From assembly GCF_900110645.1 (NCBI RefSeq), contig NZ_FOFB01000013.1:62001-126000 (forward strand): a stretch of DNA of 64,000 bases, given 5' to 3'. This document shows positions 5,545 to 60,554 of the stretch, piece by piece. The DNA comes from Neolewinella agarilytica (GTDB lineage: Bacteria > Bacteroidota > Bacteroidia > Chitinophagales > Saprospiraceae). The position numbers were made by a program, and so were the translations under genes. Position 1 is the stretch's first letter. The number at the start of each line of letters is the position of its first letter. Under the pieces are notes generated by a model. The model saw only the letters and a program-made list of their open reading frames with translations. It was not told where the DNA came from and did not search any database.

Positions 5545-6876
5545 ATGACCGATCACGCTAAAATTCATCATCTCTACCGTCGGGCAGGATTTGGTCTCAG
5601 TCCGCAGGAGTGGCTAAAGCTGCGAGAGATGACGTTCAAGGATGCACTCGAGGATCTTTTTGCGCGGACGCAGGTGCCAGCAAAGGTTTTACAAGCAGGG
5701 CAAACACCTGATTATACCCGAAAGAACATCAGCCCGAAGGAGCGGATGGAATTACAAAAGCAGGAGCGAAAAGACGTTTCCTTAATCAACGTGCGATGGC
5801 TAAAGCGTATGGCCAGCCCAAAGGAGGATGCGCTACTGGAAAAAATGTGTTTGTTCTGGCACGGTCATTTTGCCTGTGAGACTAAGTTCAGTCTGCTGGC
5901 CACTCAGCAACTCAATACCCTTCGAAAATATGCGCTGGGTAACTTCAGGGACCTTTTACTGGCTATTGCCCGGGACCCATCGATGATCCGCTACCTCAAC
6001 AATCAGCAAAACCGAAAGCTTTCCCCCAACGAAAACTTTGCCCGTGAAGTAATGGAACTCTTCACGCTTGGCCGGGGAAACTACACGGAGACGGACGTAA
6101 AAGAAGCTGCACGGGCCTTCACGGGTTGGTCCAGTAACCTGAAGGGAGAATTTTTCTTTCGGGCCCGGTTACACGATTACGGAACGAAAACCTTTTTGGG
6201 TAAAACCGGAGAGTTCGACGGAACCGATATCCTTGACATGATCCTCGAGCAGCCTGCGGCTGCAGTATTCATCTGCCGCAAAATTTACCGCTACTTCGTC
6301 AATGAAGAAGTAGACGAAGTCAGGGTGCAAGAGCTTGCGGACAGCTTCCGTCAGAATTATGACATCGGTCAACTGATGCGGACCATTTTTAGCAGCGACT
6401 GGTTTTATGCCCCGAACAACATTGGCAACAAAATTAAAAGCCCCGTTGAATTGCTTGCGGGCTTAATGCGGCAGCTCAACGTCAGTGATATTTCGCCACA
6501 GGGCATCATTATTTTACAACTGGCGCTGGGGCAGGTGCTCTTCCGCCCGCCCAATGTGGCGGGCTGGCCGGGTGGGCGATACTGGATCGACAACTCTACC
6601 CTCTTGCTACGGCTCAATCTGGCCGCAGCCATCTTCCAGGCCGGAGAGTTCAACTTCGAACTTGCCCCCGAGTTGGAACAGGATAATAAGCGCCAGCTTA
6701 AAAAATTGGGGGCCGTGATGAACCTGGAACCCCTGAAGCAACTGGCAGCAATATCTTCCGCTGAACTATCGGAGCTTTTGCTTGCCGCCACTTCATCACC
6801 AAGTCTGAAGCTTAGTCCCGCATCCGATCTGCAAGCTCTCCAACTAATGAGTTCTCCCGAATATCAGGTCTGCTAA
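5545..6876 (+). CDS. DUF1800 family protein
   Basis: 443-residue protein of the DUF1800 family, recognised from HLYRRAGFGLSPQEW at the start, LFWHGHFACE, REVMELFTLGRGNYTE, EAARAFTGW and the later FRPPNVAGWPGG. Its biochemical role is not established; in many bacteria it sits directly before a DUF1501 gene, as here with a 12-bp gap, so the two are probably co-transcribed. No obvious signal peptide is seen. Residues 39-46 (FARTQVPA) are encoded by a copy of the dispersed CGCAGGTGC-type repeat at 5662-5679. Confidence 0.85.
   Translation: MTDHAKIHHLYRRAGFGLSPQEWLKLREMTFKDALEDLFARTQVPAKVLQAGQTPDYTRKNISPKERMELQKQERKDVSLINVRWLKRMASPKEDALLEKMCLFWHGHFACETKFSLLATQQLNTLRKYALGNFRDLLLAIARDPSMIRYLNNQQNRKLSPNENFAREVMELFTLGRGNYTETDVKEAARAFTGWSSNLKGEFFFRARLHDYGTKTFLGKTGEFDGTDILDMILEQPAAAVFICRKIYRYFVNEEVDEVRVQELADSFRQNYDIGQLMRTIFSSDWFYAPNNIGNKIKSPVELLAGLMRQLNVSDISPQGIIILQLALGQVLFRPPNVAGWPGGRYWIDNSTLLLRLNLAAAIFQAGEFNFELAPELEQDNKRQLKKLGAVMNLEPLKQLAAISSAELSELLLAATSSPSLKLSPASDLQALQLMSSPEYQVC
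5662..5679 (+). repeat. Dispersed GCGC/AGGTGC motif inside DUF1800 gene
   Basis: GCGCGGACGCAGGTGC shares an exact 16-mer (on the opposite strand) with the copy in xylB near 60.2 kb. Read in frame it gives A-R-T-Q-V-P. Confidence 0.6.
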
Positions 6877-6888
6877 AACCCGAACAAT

Positions 6889-8082: not shown

Positions 8083-8096
8083 CCTATATATTCATT

Positions 8097-8240
8097 GGGA
8101 GGAGGAGCTCCAGCTTCGACCAGGCAAGGGAGCGAAGCGGCTTTGCCCCTGCAACACCTGTTCCCTAAGGTCGCTACCGCTATTGCTCGGTTCGGGAGCC
8201 TTTGGCCCCGTTCGCCGTCGGAGCAGGAGCTTCTCCGCCC
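8097..8240. repeat. MITE-like element, 144 bp, copy 1
   Basis: Ends are imperfect terminal inverted repeats: GGGAGGAGGAGCTCCAGCTT at the left, and TCGGAGCAGGAGCTTCTCCG then CCC at the right (about 20 of 23 pair). The same segment, inverted, lies at 43818-43966 ahead of the RidA gene. It has no coding capacity and lies between the DUF1501 and DinB-like genes. It is probably a non-autonomous element whose transposase is not in this window. Confidence 0.65.
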
Positions 8241-8754: not shown

Positions 8755-8770
8755 CCCTTGCACCTGCACG
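8755..8770 (-). repeat. Dispersed AGGTGCAAGGG motif, partial copy
   Basis: CCCTTGCACCTGCACG on the plus strand lies upstream of the DinB-like gene. It has the CCCTTGCACCTGC half of the repeat but not the CGCGCC half. Confidence 0.45.
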
Positions 8771-10741: not shown

Positions 10742-12661
10742 TCACTCAACGGTAAAAACCCGCAGCCCATCCAACACCATCCCTGGCTGAGAATTACCAC
10801 CATTCCAGAAGGAGACGACAACCTGATCGGCTCCAGCATCGGGGACTTTAGAGTCGATGTGTACGCTACGGCGCCAGTCGTGATTGAGGACCCGGTGCAT
10901 CCGGATCATCCGGCGCTTTACCTCTACGCCGTTACGGCGGAAGGCGATGATCATCTGGGCGGAGTTGTCGCGGTTACCGCGCGGCTGATCGATTTTAACG
11001 TCGACGGAGGCACGAATCCAGGTGCGGGGAGGCAGGTCGATGTCGGTGATAAAATCCGGACTGTTCTGTTGTTTAGCCACCAGGCATAATGCACCGTTAC
11101 CCGTTACGGGAGTCAGGCCACAGTCGTCGGTGGAGCGGTCCTCGAAGTCGTTCTCGTAGAGAAGCTGACCGATGGTCGCTTCCCCCGGGAAAAACTCGGG
11201 GGTGTCGAGAGCGAGGCGGTCATCATAGTTTTTGTCGAAGGTGTAAAGTGTCCGCCAAAAATAAGTTTCCGTCATCTGCTCCGTCAGGAAGAGTCCGCCC
11301 CGATGAGCCTGATGCGTGAACCAGAGGTTGTGCCAGGTGAAGAGGAGGAGCAAACCTCCTATGAAAAAGGGAAGGATTTTGGCGGAAGTTTTTCCTTGCT
11401 CCTTAGCTACGCCTTGCACCTGCGGTTGCGCCCCAAGACCCTGGACGCTCGAAGGTCCCTCTGCTCCTTCGTCGCTCCGGGACGCTTCGAGGTCCTTCTC
11501 CCAACCAAAAACCCATCCCAGAAAGGCTGCGAGCGGGAAAGACAGCGTTACGTAAGCCTGCACCATCGTCCGCTGCCCCAGACTTCCGCCATACCACCAA
11601 ACACTCCAGGCGAAGGCGACGTAAATGAAAAGCACCGCGTGGAGGAAAGTCGGGAAGAAGATTTCTCTCCGCTGAAAAAAGAGCGGCAGGAAGCCCAGAG
11701 CCCCAAAAGCCATCAGCGGCGTATACACCAGCCAGCCCGCTTTATAACTGAATAGACCGTGGTAAATGTGTGCCTTCAGCCAGTCAAAACCCTGATCCTG
11801 ATAACTGTATACGATCCAGTCTCCGCTGACGTATTTCCAGTAAAACAGCTGTAAAGAACCAATGGCAAGTGTCACAGCTGCCGCGCCCACCAGCTTGGCC
11901 CAATGCTGGCCAAAGAAAGCCAATCGCTCCTGAATGGCGCCCTTCTTCGTCAGGTCTAACCCCCATAGAATCGGCAGTAAAGCCGCAATGATTTCCGTCG
12001 GTCGGGTAAGCGCCATCAAGCCGATACACCCCCCAATCAGCAGCGCGCGCCGCCAGCTCGCCTTAGTGTAGAACCGGTGAGTGGTGAGCAACAAAAGCGC
12101 GTAGAGTGTGAAAACATTGTTGTGGGTCATGGCCCCGTCAATGGCCGAATAGTTCAGGTAATTCGTTCCAAAAGCGATGCAAAGCAGCGTAAGGGCCACC
12201 GCTTCTTCCCGGAAGTAGTGCCGGAGTAAAACCATCAGCCAGTACAAGCCCAGAAAACTAACGAGCAGACTCCCCAACGAGATCATGAACTGATAGGGAT
12301 GAGAAAAACCATCTGCGGGATAGATTTCACTCACGCTCGCCCACCCATGTGCCACGGCAAAAAACGGCAGGTACATGACCGACTGCCCGAGGCTGTATTT
12401 CATGACCCGGTTACCACTCTCATGGGTAAAAGCCTGGTAAGGGTCACTGGTGGGACGATAATCACTGATTACGTCGTCCAGAAACTTAACTTCCTTAAGG
12501 TCCTGATAAATGAAGGCAGCCGGTAAGTACATATAGTAGCCGCTCACATCATAACTGATGGTCGCCTCGGCCCCCGCCTGCTGCCACTTGGGGTAATAGC
12601 AGAAATGTACCAGGCTAATGAGCAGGTAAGAAGCAAGAAGGGCGAGGGTGGCGGATCGCAT
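10742..12661 (-). CDS. Polytopic membrane protein, GT-C glycosyltransferase-like
   Basis: 639-residue integral membrane protein, function not identified. About ten hydrophobic segments cover the first 450 residues. An early loop carries ISYDVSGYYMYLPAAFIY, a D-x-x-x-Y arrangement reminiscent of the first periplasmic loop of GT-C lipid-linked sugar transferases. The last 170 residues after the final helix look like an exported beta-sandwich (LLYENDFEDRSTDDCG, DFITDIDLPPRTWIRASVDVKID). A TATCTTCG box ends 5 nt before the ATG. Residues of about 388-417 (DLEASRSDEGAEGP to GAQPQVQG) lie in a loop and are encoded by two different dispersed repeats. Confidence 0.6.
   Translation of the reverse strand: MRSATLALLASYLLISLVHFCYYPKWQQAGAEATISYDVSGYYMYLPAAFIYQDLKEVKFLDDVISDYRPTSDPYQAFTHESGNRVMKYSLGQSVMYLPFFAVAHGWASVSEIYPADGFSHPYQFMISLGSLLVSFLGLYWLMVLLRHYFREEAVALTLLCIAFGTNYLNYSAIDGAMTHNNVFTLYALLLLTTHRFYTKASWRRALLIGGCIGLMALTRPTEIIAALLPILWGLDLTKKGAIQERLAFFGQHWAKLVGAAAVTLAIGSLQLFYWKYVSGDWIVYSYQDQGFDWLKAHIYHGLFSYKAGWLVYTPLMAFGALGFLPLFFQRREIFFPTFLHAVLFIYVAFAWSVWWYGGSLGQRTMVQAYVTLSFPLAAFLGWVFGWEKDLEASRSDEGAEGPSSVQGLGAQPQVQGVAKEQGKTSAKILPFFIGGLLLLFTWHNLWFTHQAHRGGLFLTEQMTETYFWRTLYTFDKNYDDRLALDTPEFFPGEATIGQLLYENDFEDRSTDDCGLTPVTGNGALCLVAKQQNSPDFITDIDLPPRTWIRASVDVKIDQPRGNRDNSAQMIIAFRRNGVEVKRRMIRMHRVLNHDWRRSVHIDSKVPDAGADQVVVSFWNGGNSQPGMVLDGLRVFTVE
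11412..11434 (-). repeat. Dispersed motif inside the GT-C-like gene
   Basis: CCTTGCACCTGCGGTTGCGC on the plus strand; read on the gene strand it encodes GAQPQVQG in a hydrophilic loop. Confidence 0.7.
11442..11497. repeat. REP-like half-hairpin inside the GT-C-like gene
   Basis: GGACGCTCGAAGGTCC followed by GGGACGCTTCGAGGTCC resembles half of the 143-bp palindromic element and the degenerate copy at 35459-35567. It encodes the loop segment LEASRSDEGAEGPSSVQG. Confidence 0.5.
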
Positions 12662-13318: not shown

Positions 13319-14446
13319 TCATTTTCGCGCTCCCAAGGTTGTCAACACCCTCGCCCGCTCCTCCGGCGTATTCGCATTTGAAATCGGCGTTTCGTCTTCG
13401 ATTTCCAGCAGCGCGACGTCGCTGTTGATGAGCATCTTGCGGGGGCAGGCCCGGCCGAGGCTCAGGAATTGCAGCAGGCGGGAATAGGCTCTTGGCTCGT
13501 AGATGGCGACGAGGGGCTCGGGGAAAGGCTTGCTGGCGCCCTTGATGGCGGTGGCAAATTTGCGGGAATCGCGGGCAGAGATTAAAGCATTTAAAGTGTC
13601 AGTTTCCAGGAGGGGAAGATCACAGGCGAGGACGAGCCAGGCGGTGTCAGGCTCCATTAGTAGGGCCGTACAGATGGCGCCCATGGGGCCCATTCCCGCG
13701 AAACGGTCGGTGATCTGGGGTACAGCAGCGTCTGCGGAATCGGTGACGGCGGCTACGGAGAGGTAGGGCTCCAGTCCGGCGGTGCGGCACATAGCGATCA
13801 TCCGATCTACTTCGCTGGTTTCCTGGCGGTACACGAGCTGGCTTTTATCGGTTCCCATCCGGGAGCTTTTGCCGCCGGTGAGGATGAGGGCTTTGAGTGG
13901 TGGGCGGTGGGCAGTGGCTTCCGACCGGAGGAGGGGAAGCAACAGATTATGGCTGTCTTCGAATTTCCCTTGCACCCGCGGTCCCGCGGCTAAATGTTCC
14001 TGCAGCCAGTCGGGCATTTCCTCCGCACCGGGGCAAAAAATGACAGCAGCTACATCCGTCAACTGCTCTTTTCTACGCGCTAAAGTTCCTGCCTTTTTCG
14101 GGTCCACGAAGACGATCTGCCGTGCCGCCGGGTAGTGATTGCCATTCACCAGCACAAGGTCATACTCCTTGCCCAGCAGCTGATCGTCGTATTCATTCCA
14201 GGTGGAAGGGCTGTCGTTCATCAGTTTCTCCCCCACCCGACGGGCATCGTGGCCGGGCAAATCTCCGTGCTTCCCGCTAACGGTAAGCACCCGAAAAGAT
14301 TCACTCAACTGCGGCAACCATTCTTCCAGCAGCCCGTCAATACGCGCACAGGTAGTGCCCACTAATGCGAACTCCGCACGCGCATAATTCCCCAATTGCG
14401 GGCGAAGAAGCTTGGGGTGTTTCTGATGTGTTTTCTCCGTGGACAT
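13319..14446 (-). CDS. mobA: Molybdenum cofactor guanylyltransferase with extra N-terminal domain
   Basis: The C-terminal half (from about residue 185) is MobA, which transfers GMP from GTP to Mo-molybdopterin: LILTGGKSSRMGTDKSQL is the nucleotide-binding loop, and ITDRFAGMGPMGAI and LACDLPLLETDTL follow. Residues 1-175 form a second domain (FALVGTTCARIDGLLEEWLPQL, LTVSGKHGD) that may be a degenerate MobB-type GTP-binding domain without its P-loop; this is uncertain. The linker AAGPRVQG before the MobA domain is encoded by a dispersed repeat. moeA lies 112 bp upstream on the same strand, so the pair is probably one transcript. Confidence 0.85.
   Translation of the reverse strand: MSTEKTHQKHPKLLRPQLGNYARAEFALVGTTCARIDGLLEEWLPQLSESFRVLTVSGKHGDLPGHDARRVGEKLMNDSPSTWNEYDDQLLGKEYDLVLVNGNHYPAARQIVFVDPKKAGTLARRKEQLTDVAAVIFCPGAEEMPDWLQEHLAAGPRVQGKFEDSHNLLLPLLRSEATAHRPPLKALILTGGKSSRMGTDKSQLVYRQETSEVDRMIAMCRTAGLEPYLSVAAVTDSADAAVPQITDRFAGMGPMGAICTALLMEPDTAWLVLACDLPLLETDTLNALISARDSRKFATAIKGASKPFPEPLVAIYEPRAYSRLLQFLSLGRACPRKMLINSDVALLEIEDETPISNANTPEERARVLTTLGARK
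13967..13990 (-). repeat. Dispersed motif inside mobA
   Basis: CCCTTGCACCCGCGG then TCCCGCGGC on the plus strand; on the gene strand it encodes AAGPRVQG in the linker between the two domains. Confidence 0.7.
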
Positions 14447-14558
14447 GATGAAGCATTATTTTCTGGAAGGGTAACAGCCTGAAGGCCTTAATGGATGGAT
14501 GGGCGCAGCACGCAGGTGCCATGAAAGCCTTAAAAGCAAGGGGATGCACTCCCGGAAA

Positions 14559-15752: not shown

Positions 15753-16072
15753 GGGGGCGAAGTTAGGGATTTGCTGCGCAGTACTTCGTGCTCTCGAGTT
15801 TCATTTCCGTACGGCAATATGTGATAGGTGATAAAATCGAACACCTGCCTCCAAGCTCCAAATAGGACGCTGAATTTAGCGCAATGAATAGTTTCTAGTC
15901 CCGATAGGGACGGGCCAGCCTCTTAGCGAGGTACGCAAGAGCCGCGCAGCGGGCGATGGAGTGCCTCGCTGGTCAGGTATTCATTTTAATCCAACCAACT
16001 ACCGCAGTTAAACGGTCCGAGAGCTTGTGCCCCCGTTCGCGCTCAACGCATAAGCGTCTCGACCAACAAAAA
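15753..16072. other. Spacer upstream of moeA, no gene seen
   Basis: Holds the moeA promoter-like box TAACTTCG (15758-15765, minus strand) and a small palindrome AGTCCCGATAGGGAC near 15898. No ORF here resembles a protein. Confidence 0.4.
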
Positions 16073-18047: not shown

Positions 18048-19307
18048 ATGCCCATTCTCTACCGCCTAGGAACTGCCCTATACCACACGGCCATACGGCT
18101 GGCGGGAGCAGTAGGCAACCCCAAAGCAAAGGAATGGGTACAGGGCCGCAAAAACGCGGCTCCCCTACCCGACCATCTCCGCCCCGAGCGGCGGAAAGCC
18201 GGGGAGAAACTCCTTTGGGTCCACTGTGCAAGCCTTGGAGAGTGGGAACAGGGTCGCCCCGTAGTGGAAGCACTACAGGCCGCTAACCCCGGCTGGAAGA
18301 CGGTGCTGACCTTCTACAGCCCCAGTGGATATCAACGCTGCAAGAACAGCGAAATAGTCGATTTTGTGACCTACCTGCCTCCGGATAGTCCCCGAAACGC
18401 AGACCAGTGGCAGCGGGAGCTGCGGCCCGACCTGGCCGTGTTCGTCAAATACGAGTTCTGGTATTACCATCTGGAAGCCCTGTTCAGCTACAAGGTGCCC
18501 ACTTTTTTGGTAGCGGCCAGCTTCCGGGCCGATCAACGGTTCTTCAGCAAATCCGGTGACTGGTGGCGGGGGGTACTTCAATTGTTTACGGGCATCATTA
18601 CCCAGACGGAGTCAGACGCCAGTTTGCTCATGAATCGCGGCGGAGTCCCCGCAGAAATCGTTCGGGTGGGCGGAGACCCGCGCATGGACCGGACGCTGGC
18701 GCTGGCGGAAGCCCCCTTCGAAGATCCCCTGCTGGCGGCCTTTACGGCTCCGGCGGTAACAACGATTATTGCGGGCTCCGTCTGGCCGGACGATCTTAAG
18801 GCACTGTGGTTAGCTTGGGATAAGCTGCCGGACACAGTACGCATCATTCTGGCGCCCCACGAGCTGCATAAGCAGGAGCTGGCGCAAACGCAGGTGCAAT
18901 GGAGTGCTAAGCGATATACGCAGTCGCAGGCCGAAGAGCTCACCGACGCCCGCGTTCTTTTGTTAGACACCATTGGCATCCTCAGCAGGGCCTACCGCTA
19001 CGGAGAGCTGGCCTACGTGGGCGGTGCCTTCCGCACCGGCCTCCACAACACCCTGGAGCCGCTGGCCTATGGCCTGCCGACGGTATTTGGCCCCAAGCAC
19101 CAAAAATTCCCCGAAGCCGCCGCAGCGATAGCGGGCGGCGGAGCCTTTTCCGTTACCTCCGGAGGAGAGCTGGCCGTCGTGCTGGAAGAATTGCTCGATG
19201 AGGAAAATCGAGCCCGGGCCAGCAAAGCCCAGCGGGCACTGGCCGGGGCTAACGCTGGTGCGGCTGCGCGCACCGCCCAACTCATCAATAATTGGGACCA
19301 TGACTAA
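18048..19307 (+). CDS. waaA: 3-deoxy-D-manno-octulosonic acid (Kdo) transferase
   Basis: GT30 family enzyme that adds Kdo to lipid A precursor at the inner membrane. 419 residues, normal length. Visible: LLWVHCASLGEWEQGRPVVEAL (acceptor site with the catalytic Glu), FYSPSGYQ, LAVFVKYEFWYYHLEAL, IIAGSVWPDD, APHELH, and AYVGGAFRTGLHNTLEPLAYGLPTVFGP. Its 3' end overlaps the next gene by 8 bp. Residues LAQTQVQW are encoded by a near-match to the dispersed repeat at 18881-18902. Presence implies a Kdo-containing lipopolysaccharide. Confidence 0.95.
   Translation: MPILYRLGTALYHTAIRLAGAVGNPKAKEWVQGRKNAAPLPDHLRPERRKAGEKLLWVHCASLGEWEQGRPVVEALQAANPGWKTVLTFYSPSGYQRCKNSEIVDFVTYLPPDSPRNADQWQRELRPDLAVFVKYEFWYYHLEALFSYKVPTFLVAASFRADQRFFSKSGDWWRGVLQLFTGIITQTESDASLLMNRGGVPAEIVRVGGDPRMDRTLALAEAPFEDPLLAAFTAPAVTTIIAGSVWPDDLKALWLAWDKLPDTVRIILAPHELHKQELAQTQVQWSAKRYTQSQAEELTDARVLLLDTIGILSRAYRYGELAYVGGAFRTGLHNTLEPLAYGLPTVFGPKHQKFPEAAAAIAGGGAFSVTSGGELAVVLEELLDEENRARASKAQRALAGANAGAAARTAQLINNWDHD
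18881..18902 (+). repeat. Dispersed motif inside waaA
   Basis: GGCGCAAACGCAGGTGCAAT then GG matches the motif at about 19 of 22 positions and reads A-Q-T-Q-V-Q in frame. Confidence 0.5.
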
Positions 19308-20169
19308 GCCACTATCACCTTGCTCTTTTTGGTCCTTTCTCTGCACCTGCGGCATCGCCCTGCTGATCTCCTTTCCACTGAGTGGCCAGCCGCTCTCTCC
19401 GGAAGCCAGCCTCAACCGGGCCTTCGAAAAAGGTAATCTCATGGTGGCCATCTCCGCCCAGAGCTGGCGCCCCGGGCTCTGCATGGCCGCCGCACGGGTA
19501 CAAACCGGCAAAAGTGTAAGCCTCTCGCTGAGCCTTAGCGCCCGGAAGAGCTATACTTTTATCTCCACCGCCGAGCAGGAATCGACGGACGTAGACCTCT
19601 ATTTACGGGATCAGGACGGAAAAATCATCGCCAGCGATAGCGAAACCGACGGTACTCCGGTGATCGAATTTCGCGTTCCCGAAACCGGAAACTACCAGCT
19701 TCAGCTACATATCCCTGCTTCGGACCAAGGGACGAATTTTGTCTCACTGAGCCTTTTGGAAAGCAGCGGACGACAGATCATCGAGGAGGAGTACCGGAAC
19801 CTGACGGCCAGTTTCTTCGCCAGCAGCGAAGAGATCATATCGGCTTACCCCAAGGTTCGCTGGCAGTCAACTATTAACCAGTGGTGTCTCTTCGGTTTTT
19901 CGTTGGATCAAAAGGAAGGACACACCTTCCAGCAACTGCGCCTGGATGCTGCCCGCTACTACTTTGCCGCTGCCGGAGGGCCTGCATGTCAGAACATTGA
20001 CCTATATTTAGCCAACCAGAAAAATGAAATTGTTGCTCTGGACAAAGCCCCCGACGCACTGCCCTTACTGGAATATGTCAGCAATAACAGTCAATCGTGT
20101 AATCTGCGAATCGAGGTCAAACGTTCCTCCGGGCCCGGCTTCATTTTACTTGGTCTCTTTCATCAGTAA
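19300..20169 (+). CDS. Secreted protein with two beta-sandwich (PPC-like) domains
   Basis: 289 residues from the ATG at 19300, which overlaps the waaA stop by 8 bp (ATGACTAA), so translation is probably coupled. The first 30 residues form a signal peptide ending PLSGQ. Two related domains follow: SVSLSLSLSARKSYTFISTA, VDLYLRDQDGKII and FRVPETGNYQLQL, then QNIDLYLANQKNEIVALDKA. These resemble bacterial pre-peptidase C-terminal domains. No enzyme motif. The signal peptide codons include a copy of the dispersed TGCACCTGCG motif at 19337-19360, here in a different reading frame. Confidence 0.6.
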   Translation: MTKPLSPCSFWSFLCTCGIALLISFPLSGQPLSPEASLNRAFEKGNLMVAISAQSWRPGLCMAAARVQTGKSVSLSLSLSARKSYTFISTAEQESTDVDLYLRDQDGKIIASDSETDGTPVIEFRVPETGNYQLQLHIPASDQGTNFVSLSLLESSGRQIIEEEYRNLTASFFASSEEIISAYPKVRWQSTINQWCLFGFSLDQKEGHTFQQLRLDAARYYFAAAGGPACQNIDLYLANQKNEIVALDKAPDALPLLEYVSNNSQSCNLRIEVKRSSGPGFILLGLFHQ

Positions 20170-22760: not shown

Positions 22761-24218
22761 TTACCGGCTCTTGTGCATCTGAATAGCCTGTGCTAACTGC
22801 TCCACCTTCAGGTTCTTGGCCACAATCTTGCGGTCCGGGCCAAGCAGATAAAGCTCCGGCGTATTGTCTACATAATAGGTCTTAAAGATACTCCGATTGG
22901 TGGGGTCAAACACGTTAGTGAATGGCTGCAAACGATAAGCCTGCACGAAGCCTTTCCATTTAGCGGCATCCGTGTCAAGGGCGATGGCGTATACATCCAG
23001 ATCATTCTTCAGGCTCTGATAAGCCTGCGTTAGTTTGGGAGTCTGCTCAATACAGTGATCACACTCCGGGTTGTACATAAAGACTGCGATGTAAGGCTTT
23101 TTAAGGTCGTACAGACGCTTGCCTTTACCGTCCAGCCCCGGAACGGTGATGTCAGGTCCGGCTTGCCCCTTCAGACTGTAAGCCATCTGGTCTGCGCGTT
23201 GTTGCAGTCCGAAGACAGTCATACTATCTGACCAGAACGCCCGCTCACGGGTGAAGTAGTTCTGAATCATGTGAACGTGAATGGCCTCGGCGTCCATTAC
23301 CGTAGACTTTCCCGGTTCATACTGCAGGGTAATCCAGTTAGCGAAGAATTTGAAGAAGTCCGGTTTATCAATGGCTTTGGCTATCAGGAAGTCGCTGGCC
23401 GCCTTAATGGAATCGGCGTTCTGTGGCGTCAGTTCTTTGATGTACCGCTTAAGCTTATTGAAAATAACCGGCGTCCGCAGCAGGCGGTCGTCATTGAAGT
23501 TGACGCCGTTCCAAAAGTCCCGCCGGAAGGCGACCACCTGCCCTTCTTCATCAACCTGACCATCGGGTCGGCGAATATCTCTTAGTTGTGGATTTTGCCC
23601 GCCACGCTTAAAGGAGGTAAACAGAGAATTTGGTGCCTGTTTATAAAGCCCCTCCAGATGAGCCATCCGCTGATCGACTAAAGCCCGACGTTCAGCCTGT
23701 AGTCTGTCGTAATCAGGGCTACCCTTGCTTGCGGAGCGTAGCTGCGCCCCAAGATTCCGGAACTGATCCTGCTGACTGTTTTCGTACCGAAGGGCCTCGT
23801 ACAAAAGCTCATTGTCCTGGCTACCTTTCACGACCATAGTTCCAACGGCATCCGGCATACTGGCCGTCATGGTGAAAGTCTGGTCCTCCGTAATCAGCAT
23901 CTGCACTCCGGAGCCGTCCGAAAAGTAAGCATAGTAATGCCCCTGAGGATAGGGTTCGCTTCGCTGAAACACGATGGCGTTACCGTCAATTCTCGCCGTA
24001 TCTACCCGGTATTGTTGTTCCATCAACTGACCGATCAGTAGTGCTCCGGGAAGCGGAGCGCCAGCCACTTCCACTCGTATATTAGGAGATTCCAGATTAG
24101 CAGAACCCGGCGCGGACGCTGGTGCAGTGGACGCTCCCGAGGAAGCAGAAACCGTTCCTCCCGTATCGCCACAGGCCAGGAGTAAAAGAATGGGTAGAAG
24201 TAAAGCGTAGAAGCGCAT
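22761..24218 (-). CDS. Thioredoxin-fold lipoprotein (DUF5106-like)
   Basis: 485 residues from MRFYALLLPILLLLACGD; the lipobox places lipidated Cys16 at the cell envelope. Residues about 45-140 form a beta domain of the DUF4369 kind (IRVEVAGAPLPGALLIGQLM, AYFSDGSGVQMLI). A helical DUF5106-like middle follows, and the C-terminal 130 residues are a redoxin domain with Cys386 and Cys389 (NPECDHCIEQTP) and cis-proline at VDNTPELYLLG. Probably an envelope thiol-disulfide exchanger. TACCTTTG lies 17 nt before the start. Confidence 0.85.
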   Translation of the reverse strand: MRFYALLLPILLLLACGDTGGTVSASSGASTAPASAPGSANLESPNIRVEVAGAPLPGALLIGQLMEQQYRVDTARIDGNAIVFQRSEPYPQGHYYAYFSDGSGVQMLITEDQTFTMTASMPDAVGTMVVKGSQDNELLYEALRYENSQQDQFRNLGAQLRSASKGSPDYDRLQAERRALVDQRMAHLEGLYKQAPNSLFTSFKRGGQNPQLRDIRRPDGQVDEEGQVVAFRRDFWNGVNFNDDRLLRTPVIFNKLKRYIKELTPQNADSIKAASDFLIAKAIDKPDFFKFFANWITLQYEPGKSTVMDAEAIHVHMIQNYFTRERAFWSDSMTVFGLQQRADQMAYSLKGQAGPDITVPGLDGKGKRLYDLKKPYIAVFMYNPECDHCIEQTPKLTQAYQSLKNDLDVYAIALDTDAAKWKGFVQAYRLQPFTNVFDPTNRSIFKTYYVDNTPELYLLGPDRKIVAKNLKVEQLAQAIQMHKSR

Positions 24219-24998: not shown

Positions 24999-26441
24999 AT
25001 GCCGAAAGAATACCCAAAGTATGCTTTTTACCTGCTCATAGTTGCTGGTTTCAGCCTGTGGGTAATTAATTGGTGGGCGGGCCGCCCACTCTTCATTGAT
25101 GAGGCCAACGTAGCCCGTAATTTATATGATCGCTCCTTTAGCGGGCTGTTCCACCCGTTAGACCACCAGCAGTATGCTGCACCGCTTTATCTGGTGATGG
25201 CAAAAGCCTGCGGAGAACTTCTCGGATACGGAGAACTGTCGCTCCGCCTCCCGGCCATGCTGGGTGGTGGTCTGGCCGCTCTGGGGCTCTGGCTCGCCGG
25301 ACGAACGCTGAAGCTCGGGTGGTGGGCGCTTCTGCCCCTGGCCCTACTGTTCGTCAATCCCTACGTCCTTCGCTACGTAGGAGAGATAAAGCCCTACGCC
25401 ATTGATCTCGGGCTGGCCTCCCTGCTCATCGCCTTCGCGCTGAAGAATCCGCAGCCGGACGGGAAGTGGCTACTCATTGGTTTGTTGGCTCCCTGGATTT
25501 CTTTGCCCGCCACCTTCGTTTTGGCAGCGGTGGGGATCAGCTCTTTCCTCAGGGTGCTGATCAAACCGTCCGCGCCCCGGGCTGAGCTACCCCAGCATAA
25601 CAGAAGGTCCGTGCTTAAGTGGATAGGACTCGCCGTAATTTGGCTCTTCTCCTTCGCTGTCTTGTATACATTGGTAATCCAGGCATCAATCGGCAACCAA
25701 TACCTGCATCATTATCATGGTCGTTATTTCTTCCCGCCCCTTAGTGGTGAGGCAAATTTGCTCAAAGCACTTGGTCTGCTCTATTCACTACCCAAACTGG
25801 CCTTTGGCTTTACGGGCATAGCCATCGTTGTGGGTGTTCTCCTGGCCGGCCTGGGCCTGTTCAAAAAGTATAGCGACCAGAAGCTACTGCTATTTCTTCC
25901 GCTTCTCATCGTAACCATTGCCTCCTACTTCACCCTTTATAGTCTCATCCCCCGCCTGCTCCTCTTCACCCTTCCGGGCTGGTGGCTCCTGGCAGCCATC
26001 GGGAGCAAGGAACTGTGGGAAGATTACAGCGGCCGCCCCGTAATAATGTATGGTCTGCCACTTAGCTGGGTCTTCGTATTGGGGTCCACTAATGTAGCAC
26101 GCCACTTCCTGCAACCGATGACTTTTTCGGATTCCCGGGACTTAGTTACACAGATAAGCGAAGGATATGTCCCCGTTATCCACCGCAGTGTGCAGCCTGC
26201 CTGGGACTACTACCGGCGCATACATCCGGCATTTAAGGACCGCCTGGAAGAAGAAGTTCCCGCAACGGAGATTGAACAGCAAACCTTCCCGGGCAAATAC
26301 GTCCTGCTGTATACGGTGCTTACACAGCAGAGCATCCGGGATCGTTTGGAAACGGATAGAATCTGGGCGACGGAGCGCGGGTGCAAGGTGAGGACAGAGG
26401 CCATATATCGGGCCGCTGCGGTATATCTGGACTGTGAATGA
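24999..26441 (+). CDS. GT39-like polytopic glycosyltransferase
   Basis: 480 residues with about ten membrane helices. The first periplasmic loop reads GRPLFIDEANVARNLYDRSF then HPLDHQQYAAPLYLVMAK; the acidic pair in IDEA and the following pattern match ArnT/PMT-like (GT-C) enzymes that take sugars from polyprenyl phosphate. A soluble C-terminal segment of about 90 residues ends the protein. The acceptor cannot be inferred; lipid A or cell-surface glycan decoration is possible. Confidence 0.72.
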   Translation: MPKEYPKYAFYLLIVAGFSLWVINWWAGRPLFIDEANVARNLYDRSFSGLFHPLDHQQYAAPLYLVMAKACGELLGYGELSLRLPAMLGGGLAALGLWLAGRTLKLGWWALLPLALLFVNPYVLRYVGEIKPYAIDLGLASLLIAFALKNPQPDGKWLLIGLLAPWISLPATFVLAAVGISSFLRVLIKPSAPRAELPQHNRRSVLKWIGLAVIWLFSFAVLYTLVIQASIGNQYLHHYHGRYFFPPLSGEANLLKALGLLYSLPKLAFGFTGIAIVVGVLLAGLGLFKKYSDQKLLLFLPLLIVTIASYFTLYSLIPRLLLFTLPGWWLLAAIGSKELWEDYSGRPVIMYGLPLSWVFVLGSTNVARHFLQPMTFSDSRDLVTQISEGYVPVIHRSVQPAWDYYRRIHPAFKDRLEEEVPATEIEQQTFPGKYVLLYTVLTQQSIRDRLETDRIWATERGCKVRTEAIYRAAAVYLDCE

Positions 26442-27544: not shown

Positions 27545-27571
27545 CCCTGCACCTGCGGCCGCGCCTGCAAG
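27545..27571 (-). repeat. Dispersed motif before glpD
   Basis: CCCTGCACCTGCGGCCGCGC then CTGCAAG on the plus strand; full-length copy, intergenic. Confidence 0.7.
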
Positions 27572-32991: not shown

Positions 32992-33017
32992 CCCTTGCAC
33001 CTGCGGTCCCGCGCCCC
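32992..33017 (-). repeat. Dispersed motif before aroK, full copy
   Basis: CCCTTGCACCTGCGGTCCCG then CGCCCC; one of the most complete copies, intergenic between the divergent ZIP and aroK genes. Confidence 0.8.
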
Positions 33018-36970: not shown

Positions 36971-37161
36971 GCAGGGGGGCGGGGTGCAAGTTGCAGGGTG
37001 GAGGTTGCGGGTTGCAGGTTGCAGGTTGCAAGTTGCAGGATGCAGGGGGCATGGTGCAAGTTGCAGGATGCGGGCAGGGAAAGGATAAATTGGCGGCGCG
37101 TCCGCAGGTGCAGGGGGAGTTGCAGGGTGCAGGGGGTAGGTTCCAGGTTGGAGGGTACAGG
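36971..37161. repeat. GTTGCAG heptamer simple repeat
   Basis: Many imperfect units of GTTGCAG/GGTGCAA upstream of pyrC, with a dispersed-motif copy (37095-37117) embedded. The complementary run lies at 37646-37731. Confidence 0.75.
37095..37117 (+). repeat. Dispersed motif in the heptamer region
   Basis: GGCGCGTCCGCAGGTGCAGG then GGG; full core. Confidence 0.7.
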
Positions 37162-37605: not shown

Positions 37606-37630
37606 CCCCTGCACCTGCGGCCCCGCGCCC
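37606..37630 (-). repeat. Dispersed motif, full copy
   Basis: CCCCTGCACCTGCGGCCCCG then CGCCC; in the upstream extension of the small lipoprotein frame it reads GAGPQVQG. Confidence 0.75.
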
Positions 37631-43785: not shown

Positions 43786-43810
43786 GGGCGCGGCCGCGGG
43801 TGCAAGGGGG
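43786..43810 (+). repeat. Dispersed motif after the CcmB-like gene
   Basis: GGGCGCGGCCGCGGGTGCAA then GGGGG begins 2 nt after the stop codon. Confidence 0.75.
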
Positions 43811-44390: not shown

Positions 44391-44415
44391 TCTCTGCACC
44401 TGCGTACGCGCCCGC
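44391..44415 (-). repeat. Dispersed motif after RidA
   Basis: TCTCTGCACCTGCGTACGCG then CCCGC; lies 23 bp after the RidA stop. Confidence 0.7.
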
Positions 44416-46877: not shown

Positions 46878-46898
46878 GGGGCGATTCCGCGGGTGCAG
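46878..46898 (+). repeat. Dispersed motif, diverged copy
   Basis: GGGGCGATTCCGCGGGTGCA in the spacer ahead of the helicase; core CGCGGGTGCA intact. Confidence 0.5.
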
Positions 46899-49881: not shown

Positions 49882-49906
49882 CCCCTTGCACCTGCGTTCT
49901 GCGCCC
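49882..49906 (-). repeat. Dispersed motif upstream of the beta-lactamase-like gene
   Basis: CCCCTTGCACCTGCGTTCTG then CGCCC; full length. Confidence 0.8.
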
Positions 49907-51307: not shown

Positions 51308-51331
51308 GGGGCGCGGTCGCAGGTGCAAGGG
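51308..51331 (+). repeat. Dispersed motif after the beta-lactamase-like gene
   Basis: GGGCGCGGTCGCAGGTGCAA then GGG, 36 bp after the stop; full length. Confidence 0.8.
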
Positions 51332-51454: not shown

Positions 51455-52393
51455 ATGAGTAAGGAACCATTAAAGACCGTCATCATCGGCTCCGGCCCTG
51501 CCGGCTACACAGCTGCCATTTATGCCGCCCGGGCAAATCTCAGCCCCGTGCTGTATACCGGTAAAGAGCCCGGAGGACAGTTGATGATTACTACTGACGT
51601 AGAGAACTTCCCTGGCTACCCGGACGGTATTCAGGGGCCTGCCATGATGGAGGATCTACGCAAGCAGGCAGAACGCTTCAACACGGAGGTTAAATATGAG
51701 TTGATTGACAAAGTTGACTTCAGCGGACCTATCCATAAAATTTACACGGAAACCGGTGAAGAGATTCAGTCACACACCGTCATTATCTCTACGGGTGCCA
51801 GTGCCCGCTGGCTCGGTCTGGAAAGTGAGCAACGCCTGATGAACAATGGCGTAAGCGCCTGTGCCGTCTGTGACGGTTTTTTCTACCGTGGTAAAGAGAC
51901 GGCTATCGTTGGTGCTGGTGACAGTGCTGCCGAAGAAGCACTTTACCTGAGTAACCTGTGCCCGACCGTTCACATGCTCGTCCGCCGCGATGAAATGCGC
52001 GCGTCTAAGATTATGCAGGACCGGGTCAAGAAGCAGAAGAACATCAAGATTTACTGGAACACGGAGACCGAAGAAATCCTTGGTGACGATGCCGTAACGG
52101 GTGTTCGGGTCTTTAACAATAAGACTGGCGAAAAGCAGGATATCCCCGTTGAAGGCTTTTTCGTTGCTATCGGTCACGTTCCTAACACAGCGATGTTTAA
52201 AGACTGGCTCGACATGGAAGATACCGGCTACCTGATTCACCAGCCGAACTCAACCAAGACGAATGTTCCGGGAGTATTTGTTTCCGGCGACGCGGCCGAT
52301 CACGTATACCGCCAGGCCATTACGGCTGCAGGAACCGGTTGTATGGCCGCCCTTGATGCAGAACGTTACCTGGGAGAGATAGGGATTATTTAA
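51455..52393 (+). CDS. trxB: Thioredoxin-disulfide reductase
   Basis: 312 residues. FAD motif IIGSGPAGYTAAIYAARANL, redox site Cys136-Ala-Val-Cys139 (SACAVCDGFFYRGK), NADPH motif VGAGDSAAEEALYL and FAD motif VFVSGDAADHVYRQA. It keeps thioredoxin reduced with NADPH in the cytoplasm. TACTTTCG, a weak -7 box, lies 19 nt upstream. Confidence 0.97.
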   Translation: MSKEPLKTVIIGSGPAGYTAAIYAARANLSPVLYTGKEPGGQLMITTDVENFPGYPDGIQGPAMMEDLRKQAERFNTEVKYELIDKVDFSGPIHKIYTETGEEIQSHTVIISTGASARWLGLESEQRLMNNGVSACAVCDGFFYRGKETAIVGAGDSAAEEALYLSNLCPTVHMLVRRDEMRASKIMQDRVKKQKNIKIYWNTETEEILGDDAVTGVRVFNNKTGEKQDIPVEGFFVAIGHVPNTAMFKDWLDMEDTGYLIHQPNSTKTNVPGVFVSGDAADHVYRQAITAAGTGCMAALDAERYLGEIGII

Positions 52394-52404
52394 AAGCCTC
52401 CGGC

Positions 52405-52586
52405 TTTTTAGACACGCTTCGCGCTTTTAGGGCTTCGGTAAAGACTGGACCGGAACTCTAAAAGCGCAGCGTCTAAAAACCGCGAAGCGGTGTCTAAAAG
52501 AAAGAGGAGCGCAGCGATCTCTTTCGTCTAAAAGGCGAAGCCGTCTAAAAAGGAGCGCAGCAACTGTCTAAAAAGCGAAGCGTCTA
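52405..52586. repeat. Irregular GTCTAAAA hairpin array
   Basis: Units of GTCTAAAA at 52471, 52492, 52526, 52543 and 52566, with a CTCTAAAA at 52456 and an inverted TTTTAGAC near 52405. The gaps (17-34 nt) hold small palindromes such as CCGCGAAGCGG and GGCGAAGCC. Not CRISPR: unit too short and spacing irregular. Confidence 0.65.
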
Positions 52587-52589
52587 CCG

Positions 52590-52642: not shown

Positions 52643-54043
52643 ATGGCTTCTTTTGATCTCATCGTTATTGGCAGTGGCCCTGGCGGCTACGTTGCAGCAA
52701 TTCGTGCTTCACAATTAGGCATGAAAGTAGCCATTGTGGAAAGAGAAAATCTTGGTGGAATCTGTCTTAACTGGGGTTGTATCCCGACGAAGGCACTCAT
52801 CAAAAGTTCCCAGGTATTTGAGTACGTGGAGCATGCGGCTGATTACGGCATTAAGGTCGGTAAGCCGAAGATTGATTTTGGTGCTATGATTGGTCGTAGC
52901 CGCGGCGTTGCCGACGGGATGAGCAAGGGCGTCAACTTCCTGATGCGTAAGAACAAGATTGAAGTGATTGAGGGTGAGGGTAAGCTCCTTCGCGGTAAGA
53001 AGGTGGAAGTCAAAGCCGCCAGCGGTAAGGCTACTGTTTACGACGCGGAGCACATCATCATCGCCACCGGCGCGCGTGCCCGCGCGCTGCCTAACCTCCC
53101 CATCGACGGAGAGAAGATCATCGGCTACCGCCAGGCGATGACCCTGGAGAAGCAACCCAAGCGTATGGTCGTAGTGGGAGCCGGTGCCATCGGTGTCGAG
53201 TTTGCCTACGTTTACGCCAGTATCGGCACGGAAGTGACGGTAGTGGAGTTCATGCCCGGAGGCCTCGTGCCGCGCGAAGACGCGGACGTGAGCAAAGAGC
53301 TGACCAAAATTTACAAAAAGAAAGGCATCAAGGTACTGGCTAACACCAGTGTTGAGTCCGTTGATACGAAGAACAAGACCCTCAAAGTGACGACCAAGGA
53401 CCGCAAAAGCGGCAAAGAATCCGTCATTGAGTGTGATGTGGTCCTCTCCGCCGCCGGCGTAGCTCCGAATACGGAAAACATTGGCCTGGAAGACCTGGGA
53501 ATTAAGACCGAGCGCGGCCTCATCGAAGTCGATGAGATGTACCGCACCAACGTCCCCGGCGTTTACGCCATCGGTGATGTACTTCCCACTCAGGCACTGG
53601 CTCACGTGGCAAGTGCTGAGGCAATTACCTGTGTGGAAGCTATTGCCGGCCTTAATCCGGAAGCCATTGATTACAACAACATTCCCGGTTGTACCTACTG
53701 CATCCCCGAAGTTGCCAGTGTTGGCTACACGGAAGCTGCCGCCAAAGAGGCGGGCTACGAACTGAAGGTTGGGAAATTCCCCTTCAGTGCCAGTGGTAAG
53801 GCGAGTGCCGCAGGTGCAAAGGAAGGTTTTGTGAAGCTGATCTTTGACGCCAAATACGGTGAGCTCCTTGGTGCCCACATGATCGGTGCCAACGTCACCG
53901 AAATGATCGCCGAATGTGTCTCCATCCGTAAGCTGGAAACCACCGGCCACGAGATCATTAAGACCGTTCACCCCCACCCGACCATGAGTGAGGCAATCAT
54001 GGAGGCTGCCGCAGCGGCTTATGGGGAGGTGATCCATTTGTAG
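52643..54043 (+). CDS. lpdA: Dihydrolipoyl dehydrogenase
   Basis: E3 subunit of 2-oxoacid dehydrogenase and glycine cleavage complexes; 466 residues. FAD site VIGSGPGGYVAAIRASQLG, disulfide Cys41/Cys46 in GGICLNWGCIPTK, NAD site VVVGAGAIGVEFAYVYASIG, YAIGDVLP, and catalytic His in TVHPHPTMSEA. No E1 or E2 gene is adjacent, as often for a shared E3. Confidence 0.97.
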   Translation: MASFDLIVIGSGPGGYVAAIRASQLGMKVAIVERENLGGICLNWGCIPTKALIKSSQVFEYVEHAADYGIKVGKPKIDFGAMIGRSRGVADGMSKGVNFLMRKNKIEVIEGEGKLLRGKKVEVKAASGKATVYDAEHIIIATGARARALPNLPIDGEKIIGYRQAMTLEKQPKRMVVVGAGAIGVEFAYVYASIGTEVTVVEFMPGGLVPREDADVSKELTKIYKKKGIKVLANTSVESVDTKNKTLKVTTKDRKSGKESVIECDVVLSAAGVAPNTENIGLEDLGIKTERGLIEVDEMYRTNVPGVYAIGDVLPTQALAHVASAEAITCVEAIAGLNPEAIDYNNIPGCTYCIPEVASVGYTEAAAKEAGYELKVGKFPFSASGKASAAGAKEGFVKLIFDAKYGELLGAHMIGANVTEMIAECVSIRKLETTGHEIIKTVHPHPTMSEAIMEAAAAAYGEVIHL

Positions 54044-58916: not shown

Positions 58917-60401
58917 CTATCCCAACATCCCCTCCAAACTCCGCTCCCACTTCAAATATGCAGTTTCCAGCGCCGAAACATTCTCTCCCGGCGTAACCCG
59001 CTCTAACACCTCCTGCCGGCCCACGGCGCTGCCCAGATCAGGGGCAAGGCCAACGGAGACAGCAGCCGCCAGCGCAGCCCCTACCGCTCCCGTCGTATTG
59101 TGCACCTCGATGGTGGCACCAGTCAGGGTAGCAATGGTGGAGCTGAATACATCGCTCTGAAAGAGGTTGTCATTACCGACGCGGATGGTGGACAGGTCAA
59201 CGCCCAGCTCCTTGAGCACTTTCATGCCGTAGACGAAGGCGAAGGCGATGCCTTCGAGCCCGGCGCGCACCAGGTGCGCGCGTTCGTGACGGTTCAGGTC
59301 GAGGCCCAGCAGGTGAGCACCGATGTTTTTGTTGCCGAGCATCCGCTCGGGGCCATTTCCGAAGGGCAGGAAGTGAAGACCATCGCAGCCAGCGGGAGCA
59401 CTTTGGGCGAGGGTTTCCATATCTCCGTAAGTGAGGCTGTCTCCGCCAATCATATTTTTCACCCAGCGGTGCAGAATGCCCGCGCCATTGATACAGAGTA
59501 ATACCCCGATCCGGGGTGCTCCCCCCTCATGATTAACGTGGGCGAAGGAGTTGACGCGCTGTCCGGGGTCGAAGGCCAGGCGGTCCGTGACGCCGTAGAC
59601 AACGCCGGAGGTGCCACCGGTAGCGGCGACCTCGCCGGGGGCGAGGACGTTGAGACTCAGCGCATTGTTGGGCTGGTCACCCGCACGGTAGCCAACAACG
59701 GTGCCGGGGGCAAGGCCAAGTTCTTTGGCGGCTGACTCGGAGAGGCGGCCCTGTTCACCGACGGCAGGCACGCGGGGTGGCAGCAGATCGGCATTGAGCT
59801 TCATTTCGTTGAGGATGAGGTTGGCGGGCGTGTTGTCCGCAAAATCCCAGAGGACGCCTTCGCTTAGCCCCGTAACCGTCGTAGTCGCCTTTCCGGTCAG
59901 GCGAAGAGCGATATAGTCTCCCGGCAACATGGCAAATTTAGCGCGGGCGTAGTTGTCGGGTTCGTTGTCAGCGACCCACTTCAGCTTGCTGGCGGTAAAG
60001 TTGCCGGGGCTGTTGAGGCAGTGCGTCAGGCAGGTGTCCGCGCCGATGGCGTGGAAGGCACGATCGCCGGTTTCGACGGCCCGGCCGTCGCACCAGATGA
60101 TGGAGGGGCGAACGACCTGATGATTGTCATCCACCAGCACGAGACCGTGCATTTGGTAGCCGATTCCCACGGCTTTTATGTCCCTTGCCTGCACCTGCGT
60201 CCGCGCCAGAATATCCTGGGTCGCCTGCACCACATATTTATACCAGTCTTCCGGATTTTGCTCGGCCCAACCCGCTTCCGGCGCGTCCATGCCCATTTCC
60301 GTCTCCGGTGCCGTTACGCGGGCTAAAACCTTGCCGGTTTTGGCTTCCACGAGGGCTGCTTTGATGGAGGAAGAACCGAGGTCGTAACCGATAGTGTACA
60401 T
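58917..60401 (-). CDS. xylB: Xylulokinase
   Basis: FGGY kinase that phosphorylates D-xylulose. 494 residues from MYTIGYDLGSSSIKAALVEA (phosphate-1 motif). GYQMHGLVLVD and SIIWCDGRA mark the xylulose site, TGGTSGVVYG phosphate 2. No xylose isomerase or transporter adjacent. Residues ILARTQVQARD are encoded by a dispersed-motif copy. The upstream in-frame extension is repeat-derived, so this ATG is used. Confidence 0.92.
   Translation of the reverse strand: MYTIGYDLGSSSIKAALVEAKTGKVLARVTAPETEMGMDAPEAGWAEQNPEDWYKYVVQATQDILARTQVQARDIKAVGIGYQMHGLVLVDDNHQVVRPSIIWCDGRAVETGDRAFHAIGADTCLTHCLNSPGNFTASKLKWVADNEPDNYARAKFAMLPGDYIALRLTGKATTTVTGLSEGVLWDFADNTPANLILNEMKLNADLLPPRVPAVGEQGRLSESAAKELGLAPGTVVGYRAGDQPNNALSLNVLAPGEVAATGGTSGVVYGVTDRLAFDPGQRVNSFAHVNHEGGAPRIGVLLCINGAGILHRWVKNMIGGDSLTYGDMETLAQSAPAGCDGLHFLPFGNGPERMLGNKNIGAHLLGLDLNRHERAHLVRAGLEGIAFAFVYGMKVLKELGVDLSTIRVGNDNLFQSDVFSSTIATLTGATIEVHNTTGAVGAALAAAVSVGLAPDLGSAVGRQEVLERVTPGENVSALETAYLKWERSLEGMLG
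60183..60209 (-). repeat. Dispersed motif inside xylB
   Basis: TGCACCTGCGTCCGCGCC core; on the gene strand it reads A-R-T-Q-V-Q. Confidence 0.65.
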
Positions 60402-60554
60402 GGTGAATAGATGAATGAGAGAATGGGTAAACGGGGTAACGAGGATAATTTTCGCCAATATACTAATCGGTGAATAAGGCAATCGTTTGTTGCCTTTAGA
60501 AGAGCAACATTTGGGCGCGGACGCGGGTGCAAGGAGAGGCCCCAGAAAGCAAAG
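60402..60554. other. Spacer upstream of xylB
   Basis: 153 bp without a gene, with a short gaatga repeat near 60405, a possible minus-strand -7 box TATATTGG near 60456, and a dispersed-motif copy (60513-60534). Confidence 0.4.
60513..60534 (+). repeat. Dispersed motif before the RAYT array
   Basis: GGGCGCGGACGCGGGTGCAA then GG; full length. Confidence 0.75.

Follow-up and report, generated by a model that had tools for sequence, protein, structure and literature searches.

A three-part, orientation-spaced motif of Lewinella and Neolewinella as a possible DNA-uptake-type self-DNA signal

A stretch of 64,000 nucleotides from the genome of Neolewinella agarilytica (contig NZ_FOFB01000013.1, positions 62,001 to 126,000; hereafter the window) contains many copies of a non-palindromic motif of about 45 bp which is built around the word CGCRGGTGCA. 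Copies in the same orientation exclude one another over a few kilobases, and in the searches made the motif is limited to the genus. From genome sequence data, there is about an even chance that the motif is a signal of the DNA-uptake type, genus-specific and read directionally, which marks self-DNA. No description of this motif was found in the open literature (subscription journals were mostly outside this coverage), and we know of no earlier clear candidate for a direction-reading self-DNA signal in the Bacteroidota.

The over-representation of the core that was claimed in a preliminary description of the window is real: 17 exact matches occur on its two strands, compared with a mean of 0.27 and a maximum of 2 in dinucleotide shuffles (n = 100). 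Genome-wide (6.22 Mb), the core was counted 1,237 times, 619 and 618 by strand, compared with 14 (5 and 9) for the backwards pattern, which is far above background. CGCRGGTGCA is the middle part of the longer motif GGGCG-N4..6-CGCRGGTGCA-RNG...GAGCA, which was modelled from an alignment of 47 sites and later from 87 sites in 404 kb. The spacer between GGGCG and the core has 4 bases in 56 of these 87 sites, 5 bases in 12, 6 bases in 16 and 7-8 bases in 3. The core is followed on its 3' side by RNG, by a purine-rich stretch containing GG and TT, and then by the GAGCA module, which begins 9-17 bases past the core. The n(2-4) spacer of the form first described corresponds to GGCG-N4..6-CGC; the downstream GAGCA module had been missed.

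The core is nearly invariant. With the A/G position counted as free, the 404 kb hold the 87 perfect copies, and words with one mismatch to the A form (A/G kept apart) number 48 compared with 29.4 expected from a third-order Markov model. This excess of about 19 per 87 perfect copies, which falls mostly on the 4th and 10th core bases, is similar to the 21% rise that PMC3630211 gives for kingDUS once one mismatch is allowed. A flexible profile that joins the core to the GGGCG module before it and the GAGCA module after it, for which sites were counted above 18 bits, finds 24 sites in the window, with a reversed control of 0 on an 84-kb stretch containing the window, and 345 sites in 1.27 Mb of the same genome, where the reversed control gives 9. 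A GCG-N4..6-CGC hairpin was considered as the recognised form and rejected: it is part of the best fold in four of six sites, the folding of all six has no clear advantage over shuffles (z from -1.3 to 1.0), and the stem bases are too invariant for a covariation test.

The spacing of the sites depends on their relative orientation. Among 482 sites in 1.67 Mb of three genomes, only 22 pairs in the same orientation lie less than 2 kb apart, compared with about 138 under uniform placement, and the frequency of such pairs recovers at 3.5-4 kb. There is little avoidance between sites in opposite orientation, and convergent pairs are even preferred. The convergent excess spans 60-200 bp and 0.75-1.5 kb, with 40 pairs below 200 bp (7.0 expected) and 46 pairs at 0.75-1.5 kb (26 expected), followed by a deficit at 1.5-3 kb (33 observed, 52 expected); divergent pairs below 1.5 kb number 32, compared with about 53 expected. 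On its own, the preference of the sites for intergenic DNA would inflate all short-range classes; the convergent excess may be partly its effect, and the deficit in the same orientation is, if anything, larger than it looks. This effect is removed by a label test in which the orientations were shuffled over the fixed positions in 2,000 rounds. In the N. agarilytica genome (G000; 1.27 Mb), 10 of 120 pairs at up to 2 kb have the same orientation, with a shuffled mean of 59.2 and a minimum of 38, and the corresponding figures are 7 of 30 in the genome G004 (shuffled 14.9) and 5 of 35 in G014 (17.5). Gaps between sites on the same strand of G000 (n = 333) have a mean of 7.2 kb and a coefficient of variation of 0.54, and in G008, a genome with a dialect of the motif (100 kb, 19 pattern matches), none of 17 same-strand gaps is shorter than 2 kb. 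Plus and minus sites on three long stretches number 56/60, 37/41 and 43/40, without strand skew.

Neighbouring sites also alternate in orientation above chance, in 77 of 107 cases on contigs C19-C21 together with the window and in 99 of 117 cases in 400 kb of contig C27 (extended sites). Strict alternation was rejected as a rule of its own, as most of it is reproduced when the sites of one strand are rotated: on C27, 95 of 114 cases were observed to alternate compared with 85.2 after rotation (P 0.01), with no significant result for G004, G014 and the window. Alternation mainly follows from the same-strand spacing, and except for the preference for convergent pairs the sites of one strand are placed largely independently of those of the other. 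Two small control samples of known signals show no depletion, with the same orientation in 4 of 9 pairs at up to 2 kb for the uptake signal sequence (USS) in Haemophilus phage HP1 and in 7 of 12 for Chi in 50 kb of Escherichia coli. The spacing of the motif suggests a reader that acts along the DNA in one direction for a few kilobases. Exclusion in one orientation fits directional import or processing from the site, but it fits a Chi-like stop sign equally well.

The genus limit is seen with patterns of different stringency. An exact 23-mer scan of a collection of 84,980 species returned 31 stretches, 28 of which are titled Lewinella or Neolewinella; of the other three, two come from a Bacteroidia metagenome-assembled genome and one from a Saprospiraceae metagenome-assembled genome. 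A strict pattern matches 17 of 20 congeners but has no match in 16 genomes from other genera of the family or in 23 from the order. The pattern GGCGN{4,6}CGCRGGTGC occurs 1,333 times in the N. agarilytica genome, 484 times in the congener G017 and 1,517 times in the congener G004, while each of 117 family genomes of other genera has at most 11 matches, with reversed controls there of 0-9. An apparent one-strand bias in G017 was a listing artefact, and minus-strand matches occur on the contig concerned.

Strict counts span 0 to 324 over the 21 genomes of the genus, with none in G001, G003 and G010. Absence of the motif from the congeners with low counts was considered and is wrong for most of them, as these use a dialect, in which GGCG is followed by G or C, the 7th core base is T or A, the 10th is A, C or G, and RTG often comes after. 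Ten such genomes, sampled over 279 kb, have 38 matches to GGCGN4-6CGCRGGTGC, some of which are one orthologous position in several genomes, and the reversed control has none. Neither G001 nor G010 has a match to the dialect pattern in 20 kb or to the strict pattern genome-wide.

According to simple gene calls (coding fraction 0.83), 51 of the 87 sites are intergenic, 33 are genic and 3 fall at the edges of stretches, which makes the density about sevenfold higher between genes than within them. The genic sites, 16 sense and 17 antisense, occupy five of the six frames: Q-V-Q (7), A-G-A (8) and R-G-C (1) in sense, A-P-A (12) and C-T-C (5) in antisense, with none in the third antisense frame. All five C-T-C copies start in the first 180 bases of their gene, and several are signal-peptide-like. 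The preliminary description had listed copies in five genes of the window, all read in one frame. These are present (5669, 11415, 13971, 18889 and 60190) and all are sense in an x-Q/R-V-Q/P frame, but the rule fails beyond them: the sites at 26376 and 53809 are sense in another frame and those at 19342 and 24117 are antisense. The one-frame pattern is a sampling effect. Intergenic copies in the 404 kb have no fixed orientation relative to the flanking genes, and this mixture, together with the division of the genic copies into sense and antisense, rules out an RNA-level or transcription-linked element.

Where tested, which is in waaA and mobA, genic copies have arisen by substitution and have changed the encoded amino acids. 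In an alignment of waaA orthologues from 21 genomes, the peptide T-Q-V-Q-W is found near residue 280 in G000, G009, G005 and G013, in an ungapped region in which the other 17 genomes have different residues, for example IAWQQQF. Likewise, mobA has no gap across its site compared with G015. An in-frame insertion similar to the Rickettsia palindromic elements, which had been suggested at first, is thereby rejected for these two genes; the DUF1800 gene was compared with G009 only, which shares the same site. At another position of waaA, near residue 50 in a loop of variable length, G007, G004, G014 and G002 carry an exact antisense site and G018 a one-base variant. G011 has an exact core in an alanine-rich part of the open frame past waaA, for which congeners have close matches, and this core may be due to chance. 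Where tested, the motif turns over in position.

Between close species the sites are conserved in place. In the closest genome, G009, which has 84% identity over 27,929 aligned columns (16.0% differ), each of the 8 window sites that aligned blocks cover is found in both genomes. Core columns differ in 4 of 80 cases, all at the degenerate 4th base, and in none of 72 elsewhere. Two intergenic sites have changed their spacer from 4 to 6 bases via paired one-base gaps with the core unchanged. The count leaves aside the remaining 16 of the 24 window sites, for example 8759 and 44395, which fall at the ends of aligned blocks or beyond them.

The motif is also found in phages. A loose form of the pattern matches 112 viral stretches in IMG/VR, of which 80 were scanned as loci. 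In 14 of these there are at least two sites or a single site above 38 bits, and one tailed-phage group accounts for 10 of the 14 (nine records). The other viral matches are taken for chance, with no formal null. The records of the group (behind loci L331, L305, L299, L323, L325, L330, L347, L319 and L343) are metagenomic fragments that overlap and are related, and 3 of 10 tested proteins have a PHROGs function, namely terminase, tape measure and tail. In total, 28 sites occur in the nine records and none of the reversed pattern, with 8 sites in both orientations in one record of 38.7 kb, and the group carries the motif at a density like that of its presumed hosts. A search of the 21 genomes with the phage terminase found nothing, though with no positive control, and there is therefore no sign of the group as prophages there. 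Among 12 loci found via the terminase, two at 54-56% identity (L410 and L412) are free of sites over about 9 kb each, as are the close-relative fragments L405-L407 (4-6 kb). Phage copies are no argument against an uptake signal, as Haemophilus phage HP1 carries 17 USS in 32.4 kb (reversed control 3).

An uptake signal could work as follows. The three-part site would be bound by a dedicated receptor in Lewinella and Neolewinella, and DNA bearing it would be preferentially imported into the cells, or spared inside them, and then recombined. This preference, coupled with recombination, would let sites accumulate by point substitution. If one site acts to one side over about 2-3 kb, another site of like orientation inside this distance would be redundant while one in the opposite orientation would not, and the exclusion distance would reflect the length of DNA handled per event. 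The specific proposal that a pilus-free machine binds the three-part site and processes or imports the DNA on one side of it for about 2-3 kb, thereby leaving both the spacing rule in the chromosomes and the host-like density in the phages, is a tentative one, to which we give slightly less than an even chance.

The motif matches DNA uptake sequences (DUS) in its copy number, its limitation to one genus, its dialects and its invariant core with a small halo of variants. Its origin by substitution, its use of tolerated frames, its excess between genes, its inverted pairs and its presence in phages agree with them as well. Like the DUS of the Neisseriaceae, the motif has more than 1,000 copies, a limit at the level of family or genus, lineage dialects, genic copies and few near-misses. 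By contrast, a DUS is one word of 10-12 bp that is read by the pilin ComP, whereas the motif has three modules with variable spacers, belongs to another phylum, excludes copies of its own orientation and occurs without a convincing pilus ATPase. The USS of the Pasteurellaceae consists of an invariant core with flanking modules, as does the motif, which reaches about one third of the USS density. Both occur in phages (17 copies in HP1) and both are balanced in orientation genome-wide, but the USS of HP1 is not depleted in same-orientation pairs (4 of 9 at up to 2 kb). According to PMC1939737, the USS has no orientation effect and a spacing less even than that of compaction sites. Uptake of self-DNA by sequence is best known in the Neisseriaceae and Pasteurellaceae, which use type IV pili (PMC7965970). 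Many features fit the uptake or recombination signal that the preliminary description had proposed, but the motif differs in its orientation-specific spacing and its three modules, and no type IV pilus ATPase was convincingly identified in the genus. The motif should not be classed with DUS or USS, though it may work like one, because tests found neither a convincing pilus ATPase nor indifference to orientation.

Several points weigh against an uptake signal. No paper on natural transformation in Lewinella was found in the open literature searched. A search of the 21 genomes with PF00437, the family of type II secretion and type IV pilus ATPases, found no convincing member (pilins and secretin were not searched). 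Partial matches of about 19-25 bits occur in 20 genomes, in 11 of them just above the cut-off, and none in G009, which is 55% complete; the best matches lie in frames of 943-1,074 residues that we judge UvrA-like, and none was judged to be a pilus ATPase. A true PilB or PilT is expected to score far above this range. A pilus-based receptor similar to ComP is therefore unlikely. ComEC was found in all 21 genomes of the genus, but it is also present in 10 of 14 control genomes and is therefore permissive evidence only; it is likewise present in G001, G003 and G010, which have no strict site, and so does not track the motif. A simple drive model with one-sided uptake predicts that one class of opposite pairs is excluded as strongly as same-orientation pairs, but only the mild divergent deficit (32 compared with about 53) is seen. 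Furthermore, the conservation figure may be flattered by the uncounted sites at block edges. The pilus result is limited to this genus, as PMC7965970 argues for pilus-like homologues in Flavobacterium johnsoniae. That paper also describes Riemerella columbina, another member of the Bacteroidota, as favouring its own DNA, with candidate words that are A-rich.

The one-sided exclusion could also stem from a Chi-like mark against degradation, the main rival reading, which we regard as unlikely. Here, a helicase-nuclease that travels from a broken end would be halted or switched by one orientation of the motif, so that self-DNA is protected and recombination started. The confinement of strong exclusion to same-orientation neighbours (22 compared with about 138 below 2 kb) would fit, as if each direction of travel needed its own even set, and so would the mean same-strand spacing of 7.2 kb. 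As with Chi, orientation matters, the spacing per strand is several kilobases, and the sites of the tailed phages (8 in the 38.7-kb record) would protect the phage DNA. However, the Chi words of RecBCD and AddAB are single runs of 5-8 contiguous bases and are skewed to one replication strand, whereas the motif extends over about 45 bp, its three modules are set apart by two variable spacers (4-8 bases, and a tail module 9-17 bases after the core), and it is balanced by strand in each stretch. In 50 kb of E. coli, Chi sites of the same orientation do not exclude each other (7 of 12 pairs, a small sample), and the genus-limited dialects resemble uptake sequences more. Directional reading and redundancy on the kilobase scale would also suit a packaging signal from which a gene-transfer agent or generalised transducing phage fills its heads, with the sites spreading via inherited packaged DNA, and the motif is indeed carried by tailed phages of one group, which encode a terminase, a tape measure protein and a tail protein. 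This is improbable: 8 sites in both orientations in the 38.7-kb record are unlike a single pac site, and the terminase lacks a match in the 21 genomes (no positive control).

A chromosome-organising site, to which a structural protein would bind so that loops are anchored where sites converge, would be in line with the regular spacing, the orientation dependence and the convergent excess at 60-200 bp and 0.75-1.5 kb. We give it a low probability, too, as the phage record has a similar density, and as neither dialects within a genus nor a waaA site that lies elsewhere and in the opposite orientation in related species is expected of an architectural site. In addition, the copy number is far above that of any structural site known to us. 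Intergenic enrichment and inverted pairs are shared with repetitive extragenic palindromic (REP) elements, which are moved by Y1 transposases (REP-associated tyrosine transposases, RAYT), and Y1 transposases are present in 20 of the 21 genomes. Nevertheless, a dispersed element of this kind is very improbable: the motif is non-palindromic and common in genes (33 of 87 copies), shows no insertion in waaA and mobA, and folds no better than shuffles (z from -1.3 to 1.0 in all six sites). The RAYT link was ruled out and is largely refuted, as presence of the motif is independent of Y1, which is absent from the motif-rich G018 and present in G001, G003 and G010 without a strict match. Insertion in the manner of the Rickettsia palindromic elements, which are likewise repeats that code for peptides in several genes, is suggested by the one sense frame shared by five window copies. 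Its probability is close to nil, as the motif is not inserted in waaA and mobA, is non-palindromic, occurs in both orientations and five frames, and is intergenic in 51 of 87 copies.

Table 1. Motif sites in the window (window coordinates of the core; G009, closest genome; G015, genome compared for mobA).
Feature	Position	Strand	Context
Core variant CGCAGGTGCC	1687..1696	+	sense, called gene 1532-4033; profile 31.0 bits
Core variant CGCAGGCGCA	1827..1836	-	antisense, called gene 1532-4033; convergent with 1687; profile 31.0 bits
Core variant CGCAGGTGCC	5669..5678	+	DUF1800 gene, sense, ARTQVP; 23.0 bits; G009 core identical
Weak core TGCAGGTGCA	8759..8768	-	23.1 bits
Core	11415..11424	-	GT-C/PMT_2-like gene, sense, GAQPQVQG; exact, 45.2 bits
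Core	13971..13980	-	MobA-like gene, sense, AAGPRVQG; exact; ungapped against G015
Core variant CGCAGGTGCC	14511..14520	+	between genes; 33.4 bits
Core	18889..18898	+	waaA, sense, AQTQVQ; exact; ungapped in 21-genome alignment
Core	19342..19351	-	N-terminus of gene 19300-20169, antisense; exact; kept in G009
Core CGCTGGTGCA	24117..24126	+	antisense to gene 22761-24380; T at degenerate position; 31.6 bits; CGCAGGTGCA in G009
Core	26376..26385	+	gene 24999-26441, sense, frame ERGCK; exact; kept in G009
Core	27548..27557	-	intergenic; exact; kept in G009, spacer length altered
Core	32996..33005	-	intergenic; exact
Core	37103..37112	+	intergenic; exact
Core	37610..37619	-	intergenic; exact; convergent with 37103
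Core	43795..43804	+	intergenic; exact; kept in G009, spacer length altered
Core	44395..44404	-	intergenic; exact; convergent with 43795
Core	46888..46897	+	intergenic; exact; kept in G009
Core	49887..49896	-	intergenic; exact
Core	51318..51327	+	intergenic; exact, 44.2 bits
Core	53809..53818	+	dihydrolipoamide-dehydrogenase-like gene, sense, AAGAK; exact
Core	60190..60199	-	FGGY kinase (xylB-like) gene, sense, ARTQVQ; exact
Core	60522..60531	+	intergenic, upstream of FGGY kinase gene as called; exact, 41.0 bits
Weak core CGCGGGTGCG	63381..63390	-	antisense, called gene 61827-63998; 19.6 bits

Site density tracks the guanine-plus-cytosine (GC) content (Spearman 0.52 over 126 windows of sequence). 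The longest gaps without sites on two contigs of the N. agarilytica genome, G000:C26:144153-164441 and C37:209408-232328, have a GC content of 0.44 and 0.47 compared with 0.51-0.53 for the whole stretches. They are possibly acquired clusters, with foreign origin not separated from base composition because density tracks GC generally.

The window also holds several other repeats. A repeat with short inverted arms (GTACGCTGCTTCCAGCAGCGACCGGCC...) lies at 27478-27537, where it directly adjoins a motif site, and at 30856-30915, with further copies in G009. Inverted, tandem-like repeats occupy 36982-37731, and a family of 60-220 bp with direct and inverted copies that are 83-97% alike is found at 60536-61767 and 24332-24479. 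Other dispersed families at 48319-48372, 8095-8235, 15890-15970 and 52390-52565 each match several to many G009 contigs, and a near-exact tandem duplication of 140 bp (24488-24764) extends into a tRNA-Gly gene (24747-24822). In other genomes, locus L095 of G004 has AACCTGCA/AGGTTGCA tracts, with AGGTTGCA as its most over-represented 8-mer (26 compared with 1.5 expected), and words built around AGTTCTGTAG and TTTTAGTCTT recur about 25 and about 12 times in 20 kb at L103 (G020) and L106 (G006), apparently as local arrays. Por secretion tails occur in 3 of 10 window proteins, consistent with the Bacteroidota.

A self-DNA signal of comparable strength to the known ones but without a convincing pilus ATPase would point towards a new DNA receptor and import route. 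A defined sequence would make transformation in the Bacteroidota testable, and the orientation-specific spacing would serve as a quantitative footprint of the direction and reach of the motif reader.

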